Of a stretch of 64,000 nt of DNA, positions 12,581 through 52,631 are shown one piece after another (the stretch's first letter is position 1; every line of letters begins with the position of its first letter). The DNA comes from Notamacropus eugenii. Taxonomy: Eukaryota; Chordata; Mammalia; Diprotodontia; Macropodidae. The position numbers were made by a program, and so were the translations under genes. The notes under the pieces are model-generated. The model did not search any database. It was not told the DNA's origin and saw only the letters and a list, made by a program, of their open reading frames with translations. The stretch covers positions 186,133,022 to 186,197,021 of the forward strand of contig NC_092875.1 in the NCBI RefSeq assembly GCF_028372415.1, given 5' to 3'.

Positions 12581-12710
12581 GAAGAGATATGGGTCCTAAG
12601 TAAGTCATGTAATATCTCTTTGCCTTTATTCCATTCTAAAGTCAAAATATGCTATTCATCTCATAAGACTGTAGCATAGAAAATGATTTGTAAACTATAT
12701 GTGATTTGTC

Positions 12711-12960
12711 ATGATGATGGTGATGGATGAAAATGGTGGTGGTGGTGATAATGGTGGTGGTGATAGTGGCGGTGGTGGTAATGGTGGTGGTGATAGTGGT
12801 GGTGGTGATAGTGGTGGCAGTGGTGATTATAATGGTGGTGATGATGATAATAGTAGTGGTGAAGATAATAATGGTGGTGATAGCTGTAAGAGTGATGGTG
12901 ATGGGGGTAGTGACAGTAGCAGCAGTGATGGTGATGGTGAAAATGGTGGTAGTGGTGGTT
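12711..12960. repeat. imperfect (GGT/GAT)n trinucleotide microsatellite
   Basis: About 250 bp of TGG/TGA units with GTA and GGC variants. It yields long frames of Gly/Asp or Val/Met/Ile in several frames, a sign of simple repeat and not of coding. Confidence 0.93.
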
Positions 12961-13059
12961 CTTTTTCTATAGCTAAGAAGCATTTTAAAACTTGAGAACT
13001 GAATCTTCTTTCACATCTCCTCAGATTATTAAAATGAACTTACTTTTGATGATAACAAT

Positions 13060-30384: not shown

Positions 30385-32850
30385 ATTCTGAGAAGATGGC
30401 GGAGTAGGTCAGAAAACTTTTGGCTCTCCAAATTTCCTCCACAAAAAAAAGATAGAACATCTCCTCAGAGCAGCAGAAATAGACACCCAGTAAAGCTGTT
30501 GTCCTCCTAAGACAATTGAAAAGATCCCGGGAAAGACCCAAGCTCCAGGGGCAGAAGTTGGACCTGAGTGAAATCCAAACACCTCCAGACTGACTTTACA
30601 GAATCAGCCCAGAGGGCCAGCCCTGGGGTCAGTTGAGAGGCCGCCTCAGTTTTAAAAACCTTCATCTTATGGTAATGTTGGGGAATGAGAGGTGAATAGA
30701 AGACTGAAGAACCTTCCAGTATTAAGAGATGCCAAGCACAACTGTGCTGACCAAATGGCATTCCAGGCTGTGGCTTTGGGGAGAAGGAGCCAGTACACAC
30801 CTATTGATCACAGTAGCCAGGGGCAGGGACTATATTGGCTGTGGGCACTTGCAGGAGAGCAGAGGCTCTGGTTTCAGTTCTGGGGCAGGGAGGACAGCTG
30901 TAGTTTGCAGTCACATGAGGGACTGCAGGGAGCAAGATCATTTGTGTGACACTATGACTGGAGGCCCAAACTGTGGCTTAGGAGTGAAGAGGAGAGCCCA
31001 AGGTTGGGCCTCAAGACAGACCTCAGAAAATAACAGTGAAAAGCAGCTGAGGCTTGGGGAAACCACTCCCCATACAACTTGATTACACTAATAACTGCTA
31101 AAAGCAAAATAAAATAATATAGAAATAAAATCAGTAGGTAAAGGAGAAAGAACCCAACCATGCATAGTCACCATTGGGATAGTATTCAGAGGAAGATAAT
31201 TCTTCTAAAAAAGTCGCTCCTTTTTCAGTGAGAAACATCAAATAGTCCCAAGTACAAAGGGAATTCTTGGAAGCACTTAAAAAGGACTTTAAAAATCAAA
31301 TAAGAGAGATTGAGGAAAAATTAGAAAAAAAAATAAGAGCAACCCAAGAAAATCAGGAAAATTATGAAAAGAAAGTCAAACAACTAGACACAGAATCAAA
31401 AGCTTAAGGAAGAAAATAATTCCTTGAAAACTAAAATTTTCAAAGGGAAGCTAATGATGGTCTACCAAGTAATCATAAAACAAAATCGAAATAATGAAAA
31501 AAATAGAAGAGAAAGTGAAACATTTCATCAGAAAAACAACTGATCTGATGAATAGATGGAGAAATAATATAATAATTGGATTCCCTACAAATATGATAAA
31601 AAAATAACCTTGATACAATATTACAAGAAATTATCAAGGAAAATTGCCCTGAAGTTCTACAAGAAGGAAAAGCAGAAACAGAAAAAAATCCAGTGATCAC
31701 TACCTGAAAGAGATCCTAGGAGGAAAATTTACTGGAATATCATAGCCAAGTTTCAAAGCTCTCAGGTTAAGGAAAAAATATTGGAAGCAATAAGAAAAAA
31801 TAATTTAAATATCATGGAGCTACAATAAAGATTACATAAGATCTAGCAGCTACTATGTTGAAAGACCACAGGTCTTGGAACACTATAGTCCATAAAGAAA
31901 AAGAGCTGGGGTAATAACCAAGGGTAACTTACCCAGAAAAATTAATTATAATACTGAATGGAAAAAAATTGACATTTAACAAACTGAAAGACTTTCAGGT
32001 ATTTGTGAGAAAAGCAACAGAATTTAAGGGAAAATATGACATATAACATCCAGGAGAAATATAAACATTAAGGATTAAGGTAAAGTCATTTACTTTTTAT
32101 ATTTGAAAATATTATCACTTCTTTCATGATGGTCGTTCTTATTTGGGTAGTTTGAAAGAAAGACTTGGCCTGATCTGAATATGATGGGGTGATTCTAAAA
32201 AAACAAAACTGTATAGGGAGAGATAAAAAGGAGCAATTATCTCATAGAAATGAGGCAAAAAAGGAAAACAAAAGAAGGGTGGGTCATTCTGAAATCTCAA
32301 TCTCATTGGGAATGGGTTAAAGAGGGAATAACATACATATCTAGAAAGGTATAAAAGTCTTCTGTAATCAGAAAGAAATAAGAGGGCAAGGGGATAGGGT
32401 AGGGGGAGAGGATAAGGGAGGGATTCTTAGAGGGGTGGGTAGGTTAAGGAATAGGAAGGTAAGACAGCAGGTAGAAGTAAAGCAGAGGAGTGAAGAGGAA
32501 TAGGAATAAGGTGAAAAGGATAAGGAGGAAAAATACAGAGGACTATATATAGCAAGCTTAGAATGTGAATGGAATGAATTTACCCGTAAAAATGGAAACT
32601 GATAGCAGATTAAAAATTTGAATTCAACAATATGCTGCTTTCAGGAAATGTTATAAAATGAAGGATACACACAAACATAAAATGAAAGTCAGGAGTAGAA
32701 TTTATTACGTGAAAAAGGGCAGTAATCATGATTTAGGCAAAAGTTAAAGCTAAAATAGATTTAAAGAGAAAAATAGGGAAACTGCACTATGTGTGAGCCA
32801 TTTTATTCAATATTGTTTTATACCATTTAAAATAACTAGACAGTATAAAA
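30385..32850 (+). mobile_element. old L1 derivative, 5'UTR plus degraded ORF1 plus internally deleted ORF2
   Basis: It starts with an L1-type 5' end (aagatggc at 30393-30400) and a 5'UTR-like stretch to about 31200. A decayed ORF1 follows (31230-32040; for example gaaattatcaaggaaaattg at 31630, matching the intact ORF1 at 48022). Early ORF2-like sequence (32540-32790) then jumps to an RT-region string (32809-32819) and again to a later ORF2 string (agacagtataaaat). The same junctions occur in the copy at 39510. Many stops and frameshifts are present. Confidence 0.75.
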
Positions 32851-41445: not shown

Positions 41446-41569
41446 GCACCCCTCTGTTCCCCATTAGACTCTGCTTTAAGAAGGCAAGAATGTGCTTTGA
41501 ATGGAATTTTGCATCCTATTCAGAAATTTAGATATTGATCTAACTGATTTTATTGTAGCCCTCCCTTCT

Positions 41570-41719
41570 TGTTCTTCTCCTCCTCTTCCTCCTTCTCCTT
41601 CTCCTTCTCCTTCTCCTTCTCCTTCTTCTTCTTCTTCTTCTTCTTCTTCTTCTTCTTCTTCTTCTTCTTCTTCTTCTTCTTCTTCTTCTTCTTCTTCTTC
41701 TTCTTCTTCTTCTTCTTCT
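41570..41719. repeat. (CTT)n / polypyrimidine microsatellite
   Basis: (CTT)n of about 32 pure units (41623-41719), preceded by CTTCTC units. The plus strand is pyrimidine throughout. All long Ser, Phe or Glu frames here are repeat artefacts. Confidence 0.97.
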
Positions 41720-42095
41720 GTCTGGGCCACCGAATTAGAGTCAGTGGAACTTCCCCATATGTACTTTAAAACCAAATTCAGCCTCTGAACCTTCAAAGTC
41801 TGTGTCTCTTAAGCCCTGAAATTTCCTGCTGTTACCATTCTTGGTTCACTCTTCTGAAAGAACCCTGCCCTTGGATATTCATTAGTAAAAAAGGGAGCGC
41901 AAGGCGCCAGAATCTTCTTCCATTGACAGCCTCCCTTCTGATACCCCCATCCCTTCTTTCCATTTAGCTCATCCCTGCCCTGCAGAGCTGATTTGGCTAC
42001 TCCTGAATCTAAACTAAAAGACCTGGGGAACTTTAAATTTCTGTGTCTTGGAAGCCTAAGATGTCTGTAGCAGAAGTATATCATTGTCAAAATTG

Positions 42096-42310: not shown

Positions 42311-42540
42311 TGTAGATTCTCACTTAGGGTGAGGTAACACCTATTTGTTGAATAGGCCTGTTTAAGAAGTAGCCAGGGCATGGCCCCTTTAATGAGACAA
42401 AGAAAAAGAAAGACATCAGGCTGGGTGTGAAACGGCAACAGTTACTATTGATAACCACTCTAAAGCCAAGAGGGTCCAGAAGAGCCCTTAGGCAGGGGCC
42501 CATTGGTGTCCCAGCTTCAGAGTGCACTAATTTTAAGGTT

Positions 42541-42783
42541 TTGGGAAAGGAAAAGACAGGACAGGACAGGGAAGGACAGGAAAGGACAAGGAAGGACAGG
42601 AAAGGAAAGGAAAGGAAAGGAAAGGAAAGGAAAGGAAAGGAAAGGAAAGGAAAGGAAAGGAAAGGAAAGGAAAGGAAAGGAAAGGAAAGGAAAGGAAAGG
42701 AAAGGAAAGGAAGGACAGGACAGGACAGGAAAGGAAAGGAAAGGAAAGGAAAGGAAAGGAAAGGAAAGGAAAGGAAAGGAAAA
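42541..42783. repeat. (AAAGG)n / polypurine pentanucleotide microsatellite
   Basis: More than 30 AAAGG units interrupted by GGACA clusters at 42553-42600 and 42711-42730. The plus strand is almost all purine apart from the C of GGACA. The Lys/Gly/Glu/Arg frames are repeat artefacts. Confidence 0.97.
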
Positions 42784-42784
42784 G

Positions 42785-43925
42785 AATGTTCTTAATGTTC
42801 TATCAGTTGAGGGAAAAGGAACCAACCCCCTTTGGCAGAAGGGGTTTCCTCATTTGGGAATTTCCTATACTGATGAAATTAGAGGTCCAGTCCCTAAGAA
42901 TGGGGGAAGGGTGGCAAAGTGGGCCCTCACCAGTCAGAACACCATAGCCTTTCAAGCAAAGGTGATCATAATTATGGTTTAAAGATAGTAGCTATCTTTA
43001 GCTTGCTTATTTCTCTATTGCAGCTGACCAAATGACTGTGAAGTCTCTCTTTTGTACTGACTGCCTCTGTGTGATACCTACATGATACTTCCTGGATGAG
43101 GTTCTGTGCATTGTTAGAACAGCTTGGGGTGGGTGGCTGTGGTGTGGTGGGAAGAAGATTCCTTCTGGTCTGACAGCAGTCACTTGAGAAGGGTTCATTA
43201 GAGTAGGTGGTTGTTGTATTGACATGTTCTCCCCAAAGCATTCCCAAAATAATTCTAAGGCCTGCAGGAAGTGTTGCTGGCAGCCGCTCGGATGGGTGAG
43301 TTCTTATCTTGACCACAGAGCTTGCCCTTCTTTCCTTCATGCATGGCCCAATGAGCTGTGGCCTTAAGGCCAGCCAAGGCATTAAGTGAAAGTAAGCAAC
43401 ACCTGGTGCTGTACAAATACCATCATCCCTCAAATTACTTCTCCCAGGAAAAAAATGATTCCTGGATGGATGCAGCAGCTGGAACTTTCCAAGAGAGCTT
43501 TCTATGAGAGAAATATAGATCCGCAAGGTGTAGAACTCTCCCATAGTCCTGCTGCATCAGCAGCTAAGCATAACGTGTGGAAGGGAGGTTGACTGAGCTG
43601 CTTACTGATGTTGGTTAGAAACCAAAGTAGCTTAATTTAGAATTTTCTCATCTATTATGGGACAAAAAACCAAAACCACCTGCTCTCTGGTATATGTGGA
43701 GATGTGGAATGACAGGCTAACTGAGATGAGCAAGATGGCGTGTTAAGGGACCCACTGAAGGACCTCCAGCTTGGCTCCTTGACCTTCAGGACTGAGACTA
43801 TCTGAGCACAGAGAGTTCTTAGCTCCAACATGGCTTATATGTTGTTCAGAGTTTAAACTCTGCAGTGTTATAGGTAAAAATGTATGGAGAGTTTTGTGAC
43901 TTGCTAGCCTCTTCATATTGTACAT
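42785..43925. other. unassigned, possible L1 5'-end relic near 43732
   Basis: A minus-strand frame of 190 codons (42972-43544) is the longest non-repeat open frame outside L1. It shows no motif I know and a low-complexity Pro/Thr patch. An L1-start-like caagatggcg lies at 43731. Confidence 0.4.
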
Positions 43926-43929
43926 AATT

Positions 43930-44019
43930 ATTAGTCAATAAACTAATCAGTTAATAGTGCCTGCCATGTACCTGGCCCTGTGCTTTGTACTGACAATACA
44001 AATACAAAAGAGAGACAAC
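43930..44019 (-). mobile_element. L2 3' end, left of an L1 insertion
   Basis: cagttaatagtgcctgccat, then ggccctgtgctttgtactga. It continues at 44183 (cgcattttcaagcagcatgt). Confidence 0.5.
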
Positions 44020-44165
44020 AAATCAAATTACTGCCCATCACAGGGAGAGAGGGGAGGTAAGGGAGACAGAGAGAAAATTTGGAACTCAAAATTTTTTAAA
44101 AATGAATATTAAAAATTGTCTTTACAGGTAGCTGGGGGAAAATAAAATATTATTTAAAAATCCAG
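44020..44165 (+). mobile_element. very short L1 3' end with target duplication
   Basis: agaaaatttggaactcaaaa, then atgaatattaaaaattgtct and aataaaatattatttaaaaa form an L1 3' terminus. Duplication tacaaaagagagacaac (44003-44019) and tacgaaagagagacaac (44166-44182), 16 of 17 identical. Confidence 0.8.
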
Positions 44166-44252
44166 TACGAAAGAGAGACAACCCGCATTTTCAAGCAGCA
44201 TGTATTTTACTAGGAGTATTCTATAATGTATTCCCAGGAAGAAAATACAGGA

Positions 44253-45182: not shown

Positions 45183-46019
45183 AACGATATGAAACATGGG
45201 AGAGAGGAGGGCAGTGCCAAGATGGCAGAGTGAGAGCAACTACGCACCTAAGCTGTAAGAAAAGCTCCTTCAGATACCTCGTAAAAGAGATTCTGAACAG
45301 ATTTTGGAGGGGCAGAATCCAACTGGAGACAGAATGTGGCAGATTTGCAGTCCAGGACATACTGAAAGGTCTATGGGAAAGATCTGTTGCACATGTTTGG
45401 AGGAGCGCACAGGTTGTACCAGCGCAGTCCCTGCCATGGCAGGGCCTAACAGGAAACCCCAGGCAATCTGAAGCTGCAGACACACTGCAGATTTTCAAAC
45501 ATATTAGCTCAGGATGGGAGCCCAGTGGAACCTAGGGAGAGAGCAGCTCAGAACCCCAGGTAATTGCAGCAGTCACTCCTGGGATTTTCAGCCAGCAGAT
45601 TAAATGTCTATAAGTCACCTCCTTGAACTTTTGGGAGCTAAGATGGCAGAGTGAGTTGCTATCTCCCTCCTCTTCTTGACTTTGAAGAGCCCAGAGAATA
45701 TTACCCCAGGAAAAATCCTGAAATAGTGGGATCAACTGAAGGATTAAAAAGTCTCTTAGCCTTTGAGGCTAGGAAAATCGCTAAGGAGGATCCCTATTGC
45801 TGTGGCTGAAGGGGACCAGTGCAGGACCAGAACTATCCCACACAGCCCCACCTCAGCAAACTGGAAGAAGATGCTGAGCCCCAGTGGGGTGAAACCTTCA
45901 ACCATCAATACCAGGATCCCAGGTGTGCCTCAGCACCCCAGGAGAATTGGGAAGACACTAGTGCAGAGGGATCACCAAAGAAAACTATTGAACTAATAAA
46001 TAAAACTAAGAGTTAGTTT

Positions 46020-46580
46020 TACGAAAAAAACCAATAAAATTGATAAACCTTTGGTCAATTTGATTAAAAAAAAGAAAGAAGAAAACCAAATTACCAAAAT
46101 AAAAAATGAAAAGGGTGAACTAACCTCCAATGAGGAGGAAATTAAAACAATAATTAGAAATTACTTTGCCCAACTGTCTGCCCATAAATTCAACAATCTA
46201 AAGGAGATAGATTATTATTTTAAAAAATATAAATTGCTCAGATTAACAGCAGAGGAAGTTGAATACTTAAATAACCCCATCTCAGAAAAAGAAATTGAAC
46301 AAGCCATCAGTGAATTTCCTAGGAAAAAATCTCCAGGGCCAGATGAATTTGCAAGTGAATTCTATCAAACATTTAAAGAATAGCTAATTCCTATACTATA
46401 TACACTATTTCAGAAAATTGGGTAAGAAGGAGTCCTACCAAATTCTTTTTATGATAGAAATATGTTTCTGATACCTAAACCAGGAAAAACTAAAAGAGAG
46501 AAAGAAAATTATGGACTAATTTCTCTAATGAATATAGATGCAAAAATTTTAAATAAGATATTAGCAAGAAGAATACAGCA
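46020..46580 (+). pseudogene. L1 ORF2, region just before and at the start of the RT domain (5' part of split gene)
   Basis: The translation contains the L1 ORF2 block [20 protein letters not shown] followed by GPDEF, then a stop at about 46381. After a frame change it continues as [20 protein letters not shown], the RT fingers region, and [12 protein letters not shown]1 ORF2 normally supplies endonuclease and reverse transcriptase for target-primed insertion. Here the endonuclease half is absent, one stop is present and the frame is broken by insertion at 46580, so this copy cannot act on its own. Confidence 0.85.
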
Positions 46581-47345
46581 GGGGGCAGGGCCAAGATGGC
46601 AGACTAGAAAGACATACTTACACAGGGTCCTCCCCACAACCCATAAAATACCTGCAGAGAGGGCCTCTCAACAAATTTTGGAGCAGCAGAAGTGGAGAAC
46701 AACAGAGTGGAAGAGATTTCCAGCCTGCAGTGACCTGAAAGGCCCACAGAAACATCGGTTGTGCTGGACACAGAGCCAAGCTGGGAGCCCAGCCCAGCCT
46801 TGGCCAAGAGGAGCAGCCCGACAAGACTCTGGGAGGAGGACACTTCAGGGTGGAATCTCTAGTCTCAGTAGCGGGTCCTCAGATCCCTCAGTGCACAAGC
46901 ACCAAAGGTCAGTGACAGGGTTTTATCAGTAGGCCAGGAAGGGAGAAGTGCCTTCCCATAGCTCTGGCAGCAGGCAGCAGCCACAGAGCCTCCACAGCAG
47001 CCCATACAGAAGCTTCGTTGTTGCAGCGTAAAAACCCCTAGGGGCATTGAAGAGCTGAGTCTTTCCTCAGCCCTGCGCAGAGGCCCTGCCTGAGCTGGTC
47101 TTTGTCTCAAACTGAATGGTGGCCCTGACCATCCAGCTTATGTGAAAATCAGCCCCCAGTGATGTCTTGGGAACTGGGGGCCAAGTGGCTGTGGAGAGGT
47201 ATCTGCTAAGATTCTGGGCACAAAAATCCCTCTCTGCATCCAGACCAGTACATGCTTGACTGTGCCACCTTGGAGGAACTGAGATCTCATAGATTCTCAG
47301 AGTATACCCTACTCTTGATAAAGGACCCAAAAGTCAAGTAACTGG
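46581..47345 (+). promoter_or_regulatory. 5'UTR of the half-L1-like element
   Basis: GC-richer sequence begins gggggcagggccaagatggc. The aagatggc string 13 bp inside the 5' end resembles the YY1-type motif at the start of mammalian L1s, which sets the transcription start in human L1. Presence of the true 5' end implies a full-length insertion of this element type. Confidence 0.6.
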
Positions 47346-48435
47346 TTGGGAAAATGCCCAAAAAAGGGGAAAAAAAATAAGACTATAGAAGGTTACTTTT
47401 TTGGGGAACAGATATCTCCTCCCATCCTTTCAGAGCAGGAAGAACAATGCTTACCATCAGGGAAAGACATAGAAGTCAAGGCTTCTGTATTCCAAACATC
47501 CAAAATAAATATTCAATGGGCTCAGGCCATAGAAGAGCTCAAAAAGGATTTTGAAAATCAAGTTAGAGAGGTAGAGGAAAAAACTGGGAAGAGAAATGAG
47601 AGAGATGCAAGAAAAGCATGAAAAGCAGGTCAACACCTTGCTAAAGGAGACCCAAAAAAATGCTGAAGAAAATAACACCTTGAAAAATAGGCTAACTCAA
47701 TTGGCAAAAGAGGGTCAAAAAGCCAATGAGGAGAAGAATGCTTTCAAAAGCAGAATTAGCTAAATGGAAAAGGAGGTCCTAAAGCTCACTGAAGAAAACA
47801 GTTCTTTCAAAATTAGAATGGAACAGATGGAGACTAATGACTTTATGAGAAACCAAGAAATCACAAAACAAAACCAAAAGAATGAAAAAATTGAAGATGA
47901 TGTGAAATATCTCATTGGAAAAACAACTGATCTGGAAAATAAATCCAGGAGAGACAATTTAAAAATTATGGGACTACCTGAAAGCCATGATCAAAAAAAG
48001 AGCCTAGACATCATCTTTCATGAAATTATCAAGGAAAACTGCCCTGATATTCTAGAACCAGAGGGCAAAATAAATATTGAAAGAATCAACAGTTCACCTC
48101 CTGAAAGAGATCCAAAAAAAGAAACTCCTGGAAACATTGTGGCTAAATTCCAGATTTCCCAGATCAAGGAGAAAATATTGCAAGCAGCTAGAAAGAAACA
48201 ATTCAAGTATTGTGGAAATACAATCAGGATAACACAAGATCTAGCAGCTTCCACATTAAGGGATAGAAAGGCTTGGAATATGATATTCCAGAAGTCAAAG
48301 GAACTAGGACTAAAACCAAGCATCACTTACCCAGCAAAACTGAGTATGATACTTCAAGGAAAAAATGGTCTTTCAATGAATAGAGGACTTTCAAGCATTC
48401 TTGATGAAAAGACCAGAGTTGAAAAGAAAATTTGA
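47346..48435 (+). pseudogene. L1-type ORF1 (RNA-binding chaperone) with one frameshift and one stop
   Basis: ORF1p forms trimers and coats L1 RNA in the cytoplasm. The reading starts MGKCPKKGKKNKTIEGYFFG, followed by a heptad-rich coiled coil (47540-47900). An RRM-type block contains RRDNLKIMGLPES (about 47947-47985). The C-terminal domain contains ARKKQFKYCGNTIRITQDLA followed by ASTLRDRKAW. Two lesions are seen: a frame change near 47577-47610, next to an A-run, and an in-frame TAA at 47761-47763 where a CAA codon is likely ancestral. Otherwise about 350 codons are readable, so this is a recent copy. Confidence 0.85.
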
Positions 48436-48592
48436 CTTTCAAACACAAGAATGAAGAGAAGCATGAAAAGGTAAACAACAAAGAGAAATCATAAGGGACT
48501 TACTAAAGTTGAACTGTTTACATTCCTACATGGAAAGGCAATATTTGTAACTCTTGAAACTTTTCAGTATCTGGGTAGTTGGTGGGATTACA

Positions 48593-48621
48593 CACACATA
48601 CACACACACACACACACACAC
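48593..48621. repeat. (CA)n microsatellite inside the half-L1 3' region
   Basis: A cacacaca run with one interruption lies in the 3' region of the half-L1-like element. Confidence 0.9.
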
Positions 48622-49470
48622 AGAGCACAGAGTGAGTCGAATAGGATGGGATCATATCTTTAAAAAAATGAAATTAAGCAGTGAGAAAGAAATACATTGG
48701 GAGGAGAGAGGGAGAAATGGAATGGGGCAAATTATGCCTCATAAAAGAGGCAAGCAAAAGACTTTTTAGTGGAAGGAAAAAGAGGGGAGGTAAGAGAAAA
48801 ACATGAAGTTTACTCTCATCACATTCGACTAAAGGAAGGAATAAGATGCACACTCATTTTGGTATGAAAACCTATCTTACAATACAGGAAAGTGGGGGAG
48901 AAGGGGATAAGCGGGGTGGGGGGATGATGGAGGGAAGGGCAATGGGAGGAGGGAGCAATTTGAAGTCAACACTCTTGGGGAGGGACAGGATCAAAAAGAG
49001 AGAATAGAAGCAATGGGGGGCAGGATAGGATGCAGGGAAATATAGTTAGTCTTACACAACACAACTATTATGGAAGTCATTTGCAAAACTACACAGATAT
49101 GGCCTATATTGAATTGCTTCCTTCCCAAAAGGAATGGGTGGGGAAGAAGGGATGAAGAGAAGTTGGAACTCAAAGTTTTAGGAACAACTGTCGAGTATTG
49201 TTCTTACTAGTAGGAAATAAGAAATACAGGTAATAGGGTATAGAAAGTTATCTGGCCCTACAGGACAAAAGGGAATGGGGACAAGGGAAGGGAGGGATGG
49301 TAGAAAAGAGGGCTGATTGGTGATAGGGGCTATTAGAATGCTTGGCATTTTGGGGTGGGGGGAGGGGAGAAATGGGGGGAAAATTTGGAACGCAAAATTT
49401 TGTGAAAATGAATGTTAAAAGTTAAATAAATTAATTTAAAAAATAAAATAAAAAAATAAAAATAGAAGAG

Positions 49471-49554
49471 AAAAAGGAACATCTTTGCAAAGAAAACAAC
49501 AACCCTCCAATAAAAGTCTCATTTCCAGGATAAATAAAGTACTGATTAAAATGT
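49471..49554 (+). other. extra 3' segment downstream of the half-L1 tail, with its own poly(A) signal
   Basis: The half-L1 3' end appears to finish in an A-rich stretch at 49411-49470. A further ~85 bp follows, resembling late L1 ORF2 (compare catctttgca and gtctcatttc with the outer L1 near 50980-51030). It contains AATAAA at 49533-49538, about 17 bp before the final poly(A). It is inside the target duplications, so it arrived with the element. A 3' transduction is the simplest reading; a subfamily-specific 3' end is the alternative. Confidence 0.5.
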
Positions 49555-49587
49555 AAAAAAAAAAAAAAAAAAAAGAAGAATACAGCA

Positions 49588-51320
49588 ACTTATCACAAGA
49601 ATAACACATTATGATCAGATAGGATTTATACCAGGAATGCAGGACTGGTTCAATATTAGGAAAACTATCAGCATTATTGATCATATCAACAACAAAACTA
49701 ACAGAAACCACATGATTATCTTAATAGATGCAGAAAAAGCTTTTGACAAAATACAACACCCATTCCTATTGAAAACACTGGAGAGCATAGGAATAAATGG
49801 AACCTTCCATAAAATAACAAGCAGTATCTACCTATGCATTTCCAATAAGATCAGGGGTGAAACAAGGATATCCATTATCATCACTGTTATTCAATACAAT
49901 ATTAGAAATGCTAGTTGTTGCAATAAGAGAAGAAAAAAAATTGAAGGAATTAGAATAGGCAAAGAAGAAACTAAGTTATCACTCTTTGCAGATGATATGA
50001 TGATATACTTAGAGAATTCCAGAGAATCAAGTAAAAAACTGCTTGAAATAAACAACTTTGGCAAATTTGCGGGTTACAAAATAAACCCACATAAGTCATC
50101 TCAACTTCTATATATTACTAACAAAGCCCAACAGCAAAGAGAAATCCCATTTAAAGCTATGGTAGACACTATAAAAAATCTGGGAGTCTACCTGCCAAAA
50201 CAAACCGAGGGACTATATGAACACAATTGCAAATCACTTTTCACAGAAATAAAGTCAGATCTAAGTAACTGGAAAAACATCAGTTACTCGTGGTTAGGCT
50301 GAGCTAATATAATAAAAATGACAATCCTACCTAAATGAATTTCCTTATTCAGTGCCATATCAATCAAACTACCAGACAATTATTTTCTTGAGCTAGAAAA
50401 AATAATATCAAAATTCATGTGGAAGAACAAAATGTCCAGAATATCAAGGGAACTAATGAAAAGAAATGGTAGGGAAAGTGGCCTAGCCCTACCAGATCTC
50501 AAATTGTATTATAAACAACAATCATCAAAACCACTTGGTACTGGTCAAGGAACAGAGGGGTAGACCAGTGCAATAGGTTAGGGACTCAAGATACAGTAGT
50601 CAATGAATATAGCAGTCTACTATTTGTTAAACCCAAGGACCCCAGCTTGTGGGATAAGAACTCACAGCTTGACAAAAATTGCTGGGAAACTGGATAACCT
50701 TGTGGTAGAAACTGGGCAAAGACCAATGCCTGACACCATACACAAGAATAAAGTCCAAATGGAAACATGATCTAGATATAAAGATTGATACTACAAAGAA
50801 ATTTGGGGAGCAAAGAATAGTGTATTTGTCAGATTTATGGAGAATGGAGACATTTTTGACCAAACAACAGGTAGAGAACATTATGAAGTGCAAAACGGAT
50901 AATTTTGATTACATTAAGTTGAAAAGTTTTTGCACAAACAAACCCAATGCAAGCAAGATTAGGAGGGAAACAGAAAAACTTGGAAATAATTTTTGCAACT
51001 AATGTCTGTGATAAAGGTCTCATTTGTAAACTACACTCTTTATGGTAGCCAAAAACTGGAAATCAAGGGGACGTCCATCAATTGGGGAATGGTTAAACAA
51101 ATTGTGGTATATGAATGTAAAAAAATACTATTGTGCTATAAGAAATGATGAACAGGAAGACTTTAAAGAGGCCTGGAAAGACTTATGTGAACTGATGCTG
51201 TGTAAAAGGAGCAGAACCAGTAGAACTTTGTACAGAGCAACAACCACAGTGAGGATTATTTCTAGTAGACTTAGAACTTCATTGCAATGTAAGGACCTAA
51301 AAAATTCCCAATGAACTCTT
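49588..51320 (+). pseudogene. L1 ORF2, RT palm and C-terminal region (3' part of split gene)
   Basis: This continues in frame from RIQQ at 46580 as LITRITHYDQIGFIPG. It includes ILIDAEKAFDKIQHPFLLKT and the catalytic LFADDMMIYLENS block (about 49983-50030). There is a local frame disturbance around the SPLLF-equivalent near 49880. One long open segment spans 49637-50302. Remnants of the C-terminal part continue through 51042-51314. The palm aspartates (FADD) are preserved, but the enzyme is fragmented. Confidence 0.88.
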
Positions 51321-51657
51321 AAGGCAAAACATCTTCCACATCCACAGAAAGAACTATGAAATTGGATTGCAGAATGAAGCAGACCATTTTCTTTTGTATT
51401 ATGTTTTGTTTTGTTTTATGGTTTCTCCCATTCATTTTAATTCTTTTATGCAACAATGACTAAGGTGAAAATGTATTTAATAGGAATCTATATGTAGAAC
51501 CTATATAAGATTGTACGCCATCTCAGGGAGGGAGTGGGGAGGGATGGGAGAAGAAGGGGGAGGGAAGGGGAAAAATCTAAATATATGGAAGTGATTGTAG
51601 AACACCAAACAGAAATAAAACAATTTGATAAAAAACAATATGAAACATGTACAAAAA

Positions 51658-51678
51658 TAGAAATTAAAAAGGATGAGA
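51658..51678. repeat. left copy of a 21-bp exact direct repeat
   Basis: tagaaattaaaaaggatgag plus one A. Partner at 52611-52631. Looser similarity continues for roughly 50-60 bp to the right once the SINE at 52648 is removed. Confidence 0.7.
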
Positions 51679-52610
51679 AATATGAAATAAATTATTGATA
51701 ATATTTTTATTGTTACCAAAGAAACATTATGTTCCTTTACAAAAAGGCATATTTATCTCATCCTATTTAGTCTTGATCTTCTTGCCAGCCACATAAAGCT
51801 TTGATTTTAGCCCTTCAGCTGCAAAATCTTTCTGGCTAAGGGCAACCAGTACTTGACTTGTGAACTCAGACTCTTGAACTCATGAGGTTTTCTGTCAAGA
51901 CTAGAAATAGTCATTTTTCAGGATTGCTGTTCAGTGACTTGTGCTCAGGGAAACAAACATAAGGCAGAAGAGGCAACCTATGCCTTGGGGTCCCAATCTT
52001 AGGGTCATCTAGACAAATATGCAGTCTGCTATGAGCTTTTTTAGCCATGATAGTTACTGTGAGGAGGGGAAGGGACAGGAATCCCCTCCGCTGGATAGGA
52101 TAGTCTGGCACCACAAAGGAAAGCTGATATGCTCAAAAGAAGAAAAGTGACAGCCTTTTGTTCTTTCTTTTTAAACTGAGTGGGAAGCTGTTCCTAGCTC
52201 AGACAACAATCATCTTTAATGCAGCCTCAAAGTCCTGGGCACCAGTAGGGGATTGTTATGTCATCTCAGAGCACAAGTGGCTGAGTCAGATCATGAATCT
52301 CTACCCACTGAGTCAAAGTGAGCATGCTCAGCTGTATGGAAGGCTCCCCTTATCACCCCTCTTATGTATATCTAGCACTTCATGTACATTATCTCATTTG
52401 GCTCCCACAATAACTCTGTGAGATTGGCACTGCAGGTATTATCAATTGTATAAAGGCAGGATAACATAATATAATAGTCTTCTAACTTTTTAGTTGCATA
52501 TCTCTATTGATAAGACATTTTTGAGTATGAAAATTCCTGATATGTAAATTTATAAATTATCTACATATACTACTGTATTAATATATTGTATACATTAGAA
52601 AACGTAAAAC
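51679..52610. other. 932 bp between the 21-bp repeats; minus-strand open segments, identity unknown
   Basis: The minus strand has an open segment MAKKAHSRLHICLDDPKIGT at about 52045, stopping at about 51911. In another frame it reads LVALSQKDFAAEGLKSKLYV then AGKKIKTK and a stop at about 51769, followed by AATAAA on that strand at 51709-51714. This could be a decayed retrocopy, but I recognise no parent and see no poly(A) tract. Confidence 0.3.
52360..52445 (-). mobile_element. MIR/L2-type fragment
   Basis: tgtacattatctcatttggc, tccca, then taactctgtgagattggca. Confidence 0.45.
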
Positions 52611-52631
52611 TAGAAATTAAAAAGGATGAGA
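52611..52631. repeat. right copy of a 21-bp exact direct repeat
   Basis: Identical to 51658-51678 over 21 bp. The pair encloses 932 bp of unassigned sequence. Confidence 0.7.

Follow-up and report, generated by a model that had tools for sequence, protein, structure and literature searches.

Why would a retrotransposon that must borrow its reverse transcriptase keep a gene for its own RNA-binding protein? ORF1-only elements raise this question, and the window studied here, i.e. the whole 64-kb stretch of DNA that was analysed, holds such an element, 2,992 bp long (46581-49572), which interrupts an older L1 in its reverse-transcriptase frame. The element and its parts, the host L1, the second copy and the related 3'-end fragment described below all lie on the forward strand. 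The element is very probably a copy of a half-L1 (HAL1-type) retrotransposon, probably complete at its 5' end; its insertion would have proceeded by target-primed reverse transcription, with ORF2p coming from elsewhere. Its RNA would have contained, after a 5' untranslated region, the ORF1 of an L1-type RNA-binding protein, followed by a 3' region of 1 kb and a poly(A). The ORF2p (endonuclease/reverse transcriptase) of a full L1 would have nicked the older L1 in the genome, and target-primed reverse transcription would have copied the half-L1 RNA into this site, giving rise to a 15-bp duplication. On this reading ORF2p was presumably supplied in trans, and ORF1p would have been made by the element itself and would have mattered for its spread.

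HAL1 elements are described as encoding ORF1p only and as having arisen several times in mammals (PMC5753468). They are further described as carrying a poly(A) and target-site duplications, as depending on the reverse transcriptase and endonuclease of L1 and, in the human genome, as amounting to nearly 2,100 copies (PMC5322556); the machinery used by them is likely that of L1 (PMC4161310). Among the rows considered from one table of young families, HAL1 is entered under marmoset and guinea pig, and it is absent from the eight families given there for opossum (PMC3183009). Among the papers listed, judged by title and the opening part of the abstract, none dealt with marsupial half-L1 elements. 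Repbase may contain opossum HAL1 consensus sequences.

Insertion site and anatomy of the element

The element is enclosed by a 15-bp direct repeat, AAGAAGAATACAGCA, whose left copy (46566-46580) and right copy (49573-49587) are identical (0 mismatches). With up to two mismatches allowed, these two were the only matches in the window, for a chance expectation of 0.35, and two or more matches were obtained in 4 of 100 shuffles. The repeats were taken as a target-site duplication because they are placed at both ends of an element with an L1-like 5' end and a poly(A). When 46580 is joined to 49588, the reverse-transcriptase frame of the host L1 reads through the site, and the host matches human ORF2p. 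An initial annotation of this DNA had described an element nested in L1 ORF2 at 46566..49587, with a perfect 15-bp duplication that restores the L1 frame; its coordinates proved exact, and the duplication, the nesting and the restored frame were all recovered. The duplication starts at GC/AAGA. The consensus of the L1 endonuclease is TT/AAAA, to which this start appears to be a poor match, and this counts against the reading as an insertion by L1 endonuclease.

The 5' untranslated region comprises 773 bp (46581..47353). It begins with GGGGGCAGGGCCAAGATGGCAGA, and CAAGATGG is found at 46592, a motif which we take to be the YY1 site at the 5' starts of human L1s. Due to this L1-like start and the CAAGATGG motif, the element is considered probably 5'-complete. 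Alignment of its 5' region to that of the host L1 gave a score of 12.0 (shuffle mean 13.2), which is non-significant, and the best piece was the 14-base start, in which 13 of 14 bases are alike. Downstream of ORF1 lies the 3' region (48455..49423), which spans about 1 kb, is rich in purines and includes a (CA)n run (about 48590-48621). To the 3' UTR of the host L1 it showed no detectable relation (score 24.5, shuffle mean 18.1, shuffle maximum 28.0). It is followed by an internal A-rich tract with approximate ends (49424..49459), which we infer to represent the source copy's own poly(A), an extra segment of 95 bp and the terminal poly(A) (49555..49572). Together with the two bases that open the right duplication, the latter forms a run of 20 consecutive A. 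The 3' region and poly(A) reported in the initial annotation are hence both present.

ORF1 (47354..48454) was recognised from its frames, Pfam families and structure matches. Its longest open piece has 223 codons (47764..48432) and matches PF02994 (E 7e-11) and PF17490 (E 5e-07), as well as the structure 2ykp of human L1 ORF1p (E 7e-25). According to Pfam, this piece covers the RNA-binding domain of L1 and the first part of the C-terminal one. The pieces upstream of it have the look of a coiled coil, as judged by eye only, and gave no Pfam family above the cut-off. ORF1 is decayed. One stop codon is located at 47761-47763. The frames indicate one frameshift soon after the ATG (47354-47377) and another within 47575-47618, and two further shifts, at 48368 and 48379, were determined by alignment to the C-terminus of a second copy. 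The last ~22 codons of the 223-codon frame are therefore out of the ancestral frame. In total, ORF1 carries about five lesions in 1.1 kb. Thus, the ORF1 named in the initial annotation is confirmed, but the count of one frameshift and one stop has to be corrected to one stop and about four frameshifts, and the statement that lesions are few does not hold.

The same annotation had called the insertion recent and well-dated. Of this, the relative order stands: the nested position gives a clean order in which the element is younger than the host L1, and it implies nothing more. A date does not follow. The one stop corresponds to 1.8% substitutions per site (interval 0-10%) and the four frameshifts to 2.6-4.6% (intervals 0.7-11.7%) under assumed ratios of indels to substitutions; the lesions hence give a divergence of a few per cent, with intervals jointly spanning about 0 to 12%, which is too loose for dating. 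The probability of a perfect 15-bp duplication is 0.21 at 5% divergence and 0.08 at 8%.

The element has no detectable ORF2 between ORF1 and the 3' end, as the initial annotation had claimed, and its reading as an ORF1-only element moved by borrowed reverse transcriptase is also the one preferred here. All stop-to-stop frames of at least 45 residues were extracted from it, and the longest was the 223 amino acids of ORF1. A tblastn search with two reverse-transcriptase segments of the host gave no match inside the element. Six forward pieces taken from the 5' and 3' regions gave no Pfam family at E 0.1; five of these pieces come from the 3' region, in which no Pfam match, the endonuclease included, was obtained.

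The element appears to be a fine representative of HAL1s as already known, and not a new kind of system. With the HAL1s of mammals it shares an L1-type ORF1 (PF02994, PF17490 and 2ykp) as the only ORF, non-coding regions on the 5' and 3' sides, a poly(A) and a target-site duplication (run of 20 A, perfect 15 bp), the lack of an ORF2 before the 3' end (frames, tblastn and Pfam) and a presumed dependence on the L1 reverse transcriptase and endonuclease. It differs from them in its extra 95-bp tail, and the likeness described here is one of layout. Autonomous LINE-1s have the ORF1p domains, the L1-like 5' start and the insertion hallmarks in common with the element, whereas their ORF2 with endonuclease and reverse transcriptase was not detected in it. 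L1-mobilised SINEs are likewise non-autonomous and borrow ORF2p, but they code for no protein, whereas the element codes for ORF1p.

A second copy and selection on ORF1

A second, more decayed ORF1-only copy was found by alignment and tblastn about 14 kb upstream, at about 31270..32535. Its ORF1 (31270-32040) lies on the same strand and is ~70% identical to that of the element, in two pieces; by protein, the match has an E value of 9e-25. A local alignment of the two copies runs from 47706/31330 to about 49044/32535 and crosses the boundary between ORF1 and the 3' region with small gaps, of which the largest is at the (CA)n run. The 3' regions of both copies are homologous: the alignment score of 38.5 exceeded all 500 dinucleotide shuffles (mean 19.8, maximum 37.0, z 6.3) and also 300 cruder shuffles (maximum 30.5). 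For the 300 nt adjoining ORF1, homology is weaker, with a score of 20.0 that was attained by 2 of 500 shuffles. The 5' regions of the copies do not align (13.5, shuffle mean 13.6).

The tblastn search with the two host reverse-transcriptase segments gave no match in the second copy either, and this copy also appears to be without ORF2, which counts against a deletion of ORF2 private to the element. The initial annotation had asked whether other copies of the element carry an ORF2; in the one other copy compared, none was found. The ORF2-less layout is thus common to the element and one further copy, and the comparison is limited to these two.

Mismatches between the two ORF1 sequences were counted by codon position and amounted to 49/211 at the first, 45/212 at the second and 75/208 at the third position. 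The excess at the third position over the first and second is significant (p 0.0003). A dN/dS of ~0.36 was calculated after Nei and Gojobori from 198 ungapped codons, with 7 set aside due to stops in the second copy; the compared stretch includes the ~22 codons which are out of the ancestral frame. The excess of third-position mismatches shows that purifying selection acted on ORF1 along the lines separating the copies. Judging from the sequences, the selected lines may either have been half-L1s throughout or have been L1s which lost ORF2 separately.

In the latter case, the two copies would represent separate L1 lineages with independent losses of ORF2, and the codon bias would reflect selection on L1s and not on half-L1s. 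The copies differ by ~30%, their 5' regions are without alignment, and repeated origins of HAL1s within mammals are reported (PMC5753468). Set against this is the alignment across the ORF1/3' boundary, which contains small gaps only, even if the significance at the boundary itself is modest (2/500 shuffles). We regard independent losses as somewhat unlikely. Since the ORF2-less layout and the codon-position signal are both seen with two copies from a single window, the question of why such elements keep an RNA-binding protein of their own could be resolved across the genome of this species.

A fragment of a related 3' end is located at 44053..44117 and is 81% identical to 49357-49423 of the element. 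Within the region 43988-44182, this fragment is flanked by two exact copies of AAAGAGAGACAAC (44007-44019 and 44170-44182). It is possibly a small insertion with a duplication. There is no poly(A) directly before the right repeat.

The 95-bp 3' tail

The extra 3' segment (about 49460..49554) follows the internal A-rich tract and contains an AATAAA (49533-49538), with 16 nt between this signal and the terminal poly(A). It is probably a 3' transduction, since the element is followed by an A-rich tract, then by additional sequence that has a poly(A) signal of its own, and finally by poly(A) and duplication; this order is typical of a 3' transduction irrespective of what the additional sequence is. 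The source copy would have been read through into its 3' flank, and the transcript would have ended at the AATAAA encountered there. In the related fragment at 44053-44117, no such tail was seen by eye. The tail represents a tag with which the source copy could be identified.

The sequence of the tail is suggestive of an origin from L1 ORF2, and we take it to resemble marsupial L1 ORF2 sequence. A peptide of the tail, SNKSLISRI, corresponds to residues 1045-1053 of human ORF2p, SDKGLISRI. When the DNA of the tail was aligned to positions 50941-51045 of the host L1, a stretch chosen beforehand, the score was attained by 10 of 1000 shuffles; at the protein level, the scores against human ORF2p were attained by 57 of 1000 and 11 of 300 shuffles. 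Comparison with the host L1 peptide gave no support (score attained by 249 of 1000 shuffles). Likewise, when the tail DNA was aligned without such a restriction to the host right part, the score of 37 lay close to the mean of 200 shuffles (36, maximum 52). Extending the alignment to the whole host and everything else in the window gave nothing above the shuffles tested on the host right part. Two PDB searches with the tail were without match. If the tail does stem from L1 ORF2, the source copy itself would have been situated inside another L1.

Instead of a transduction, the tail may record a template switch during one insertion, in which reverse transcription changed between the half-L1 RNA and an L1 RNA with its poly(A) added early in ORF2. 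Its end 16 nt past the AATAAA and its weak likeness to L1 ORF2 would fit such an event, and chimeras of L1 with other RNAs are described (PMC13174262). No feature at this locus discriminates directly between a switch and a transduction, but for the latter a single RNA, primed once in the ordinary way, is enough, and a template switch is thus rated unlikely.

With the 3' transduction retained as the preferred reading of the tail, a wider interpretation is offered tentatively, as a possibility which falls short of being probable. A marsupial half-L1 lineage without an ORF2 of its own may have kept ORF1 under purifying selection across a long divergence, so that ORF1p would have to help its own RNA in cis; in addition, half-L1 sources residing in L1s might mobilise pieces of L1 ORF2 by 3' transduction via chance poly(A) signals.

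The host L1 and its surroundings

The left part of the host L1 (45635..46565, start approximate) was delimited by sequence and frames. An L1-like 5' start joins ORF2 directly at ~45978, upstream of the reverse transcriptase, and neither ORF1 nor endonuclease was seen by eye in this part. It contains at least two stops, at 46381 and 46423. The right part (49588..51700, 3' end approximate) comprises reverse transcriptase, C-terminal pieces of ORF2 and the 3' UTR. On this side, 221 residues match human L1 ORF2p (8c8j, E 7e-54), and RVT_1 of Pfam was found with an E value of 8.5e-17; the reverse transcriptase right of the insertion contains two frameshifts in 0.7 kb. The stretch corresponding to residues ~1054-1197 of human ORF2p is missing, with the gap at ~51030. 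The host L1 is therefore itself internally deleted, a feature that, like the second copy and the 95-bp tail, had escaped the initial annotation, and its two gaps could be due either to splicing before insertion or to later deletion.

That the element is a one-off product of a single L1 which lost ORF2 by deletion or RNA splicing, and does not belong to an ORF1-only family that propagates, is very improbable: spliced L1 RNAs do insert, as described for SpIREs (PMC5860796), and the host L1 appears to have its 5' start joined to mid-ORF2, but in the second copy ORF1 likewise leads into the 3' region with no ORF2 between them, and this 3' region is homologous. SpIREs resemble the element in that they derive from L1, miss a part of it and are inserted by the L1 machinery; those described (PMC5860796) have lost the 5' UTR or the 5' UTR and ORF1, whereas the element and the second copy miss ORF2.

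A target duplication of the host L1 was searched for by comparing repeats of 9-20 bases ending at 45622-45641 with the region from 51301 to ~53500 within a mismatch rule, and no candidate was found. Near the 3' end of the host L1, a 26-bp direct repeat of 96% identity (51653-51678 and 52606-52631) encloses ~930 bp; it could be the long target duplication of another insertion.

Searches in collections of prokaryotic and viral contigs gave 80 and 3 stretches, respectively, matching the ORF1 pattern, and 16 stretches in viral contigs matching that of the reverse transcriptase. No relative was among them, which is unsurprising for prokaryotic and viral DNA. Rfam gave no match in the window at gathering scores. 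The window is rich in L1 sequences, which, together with the matches of a SINE motif given below, suggests a marsupial genome. Long simple-repeat stretches at 42427-42982, 41476-41796 and 12642-12983 lead to spurious ORFs of low complexity. A SINE motif, which we assume to be one of marsupials, matched 11 times in the window with up to three mismatches, for an expectation of 0.01.
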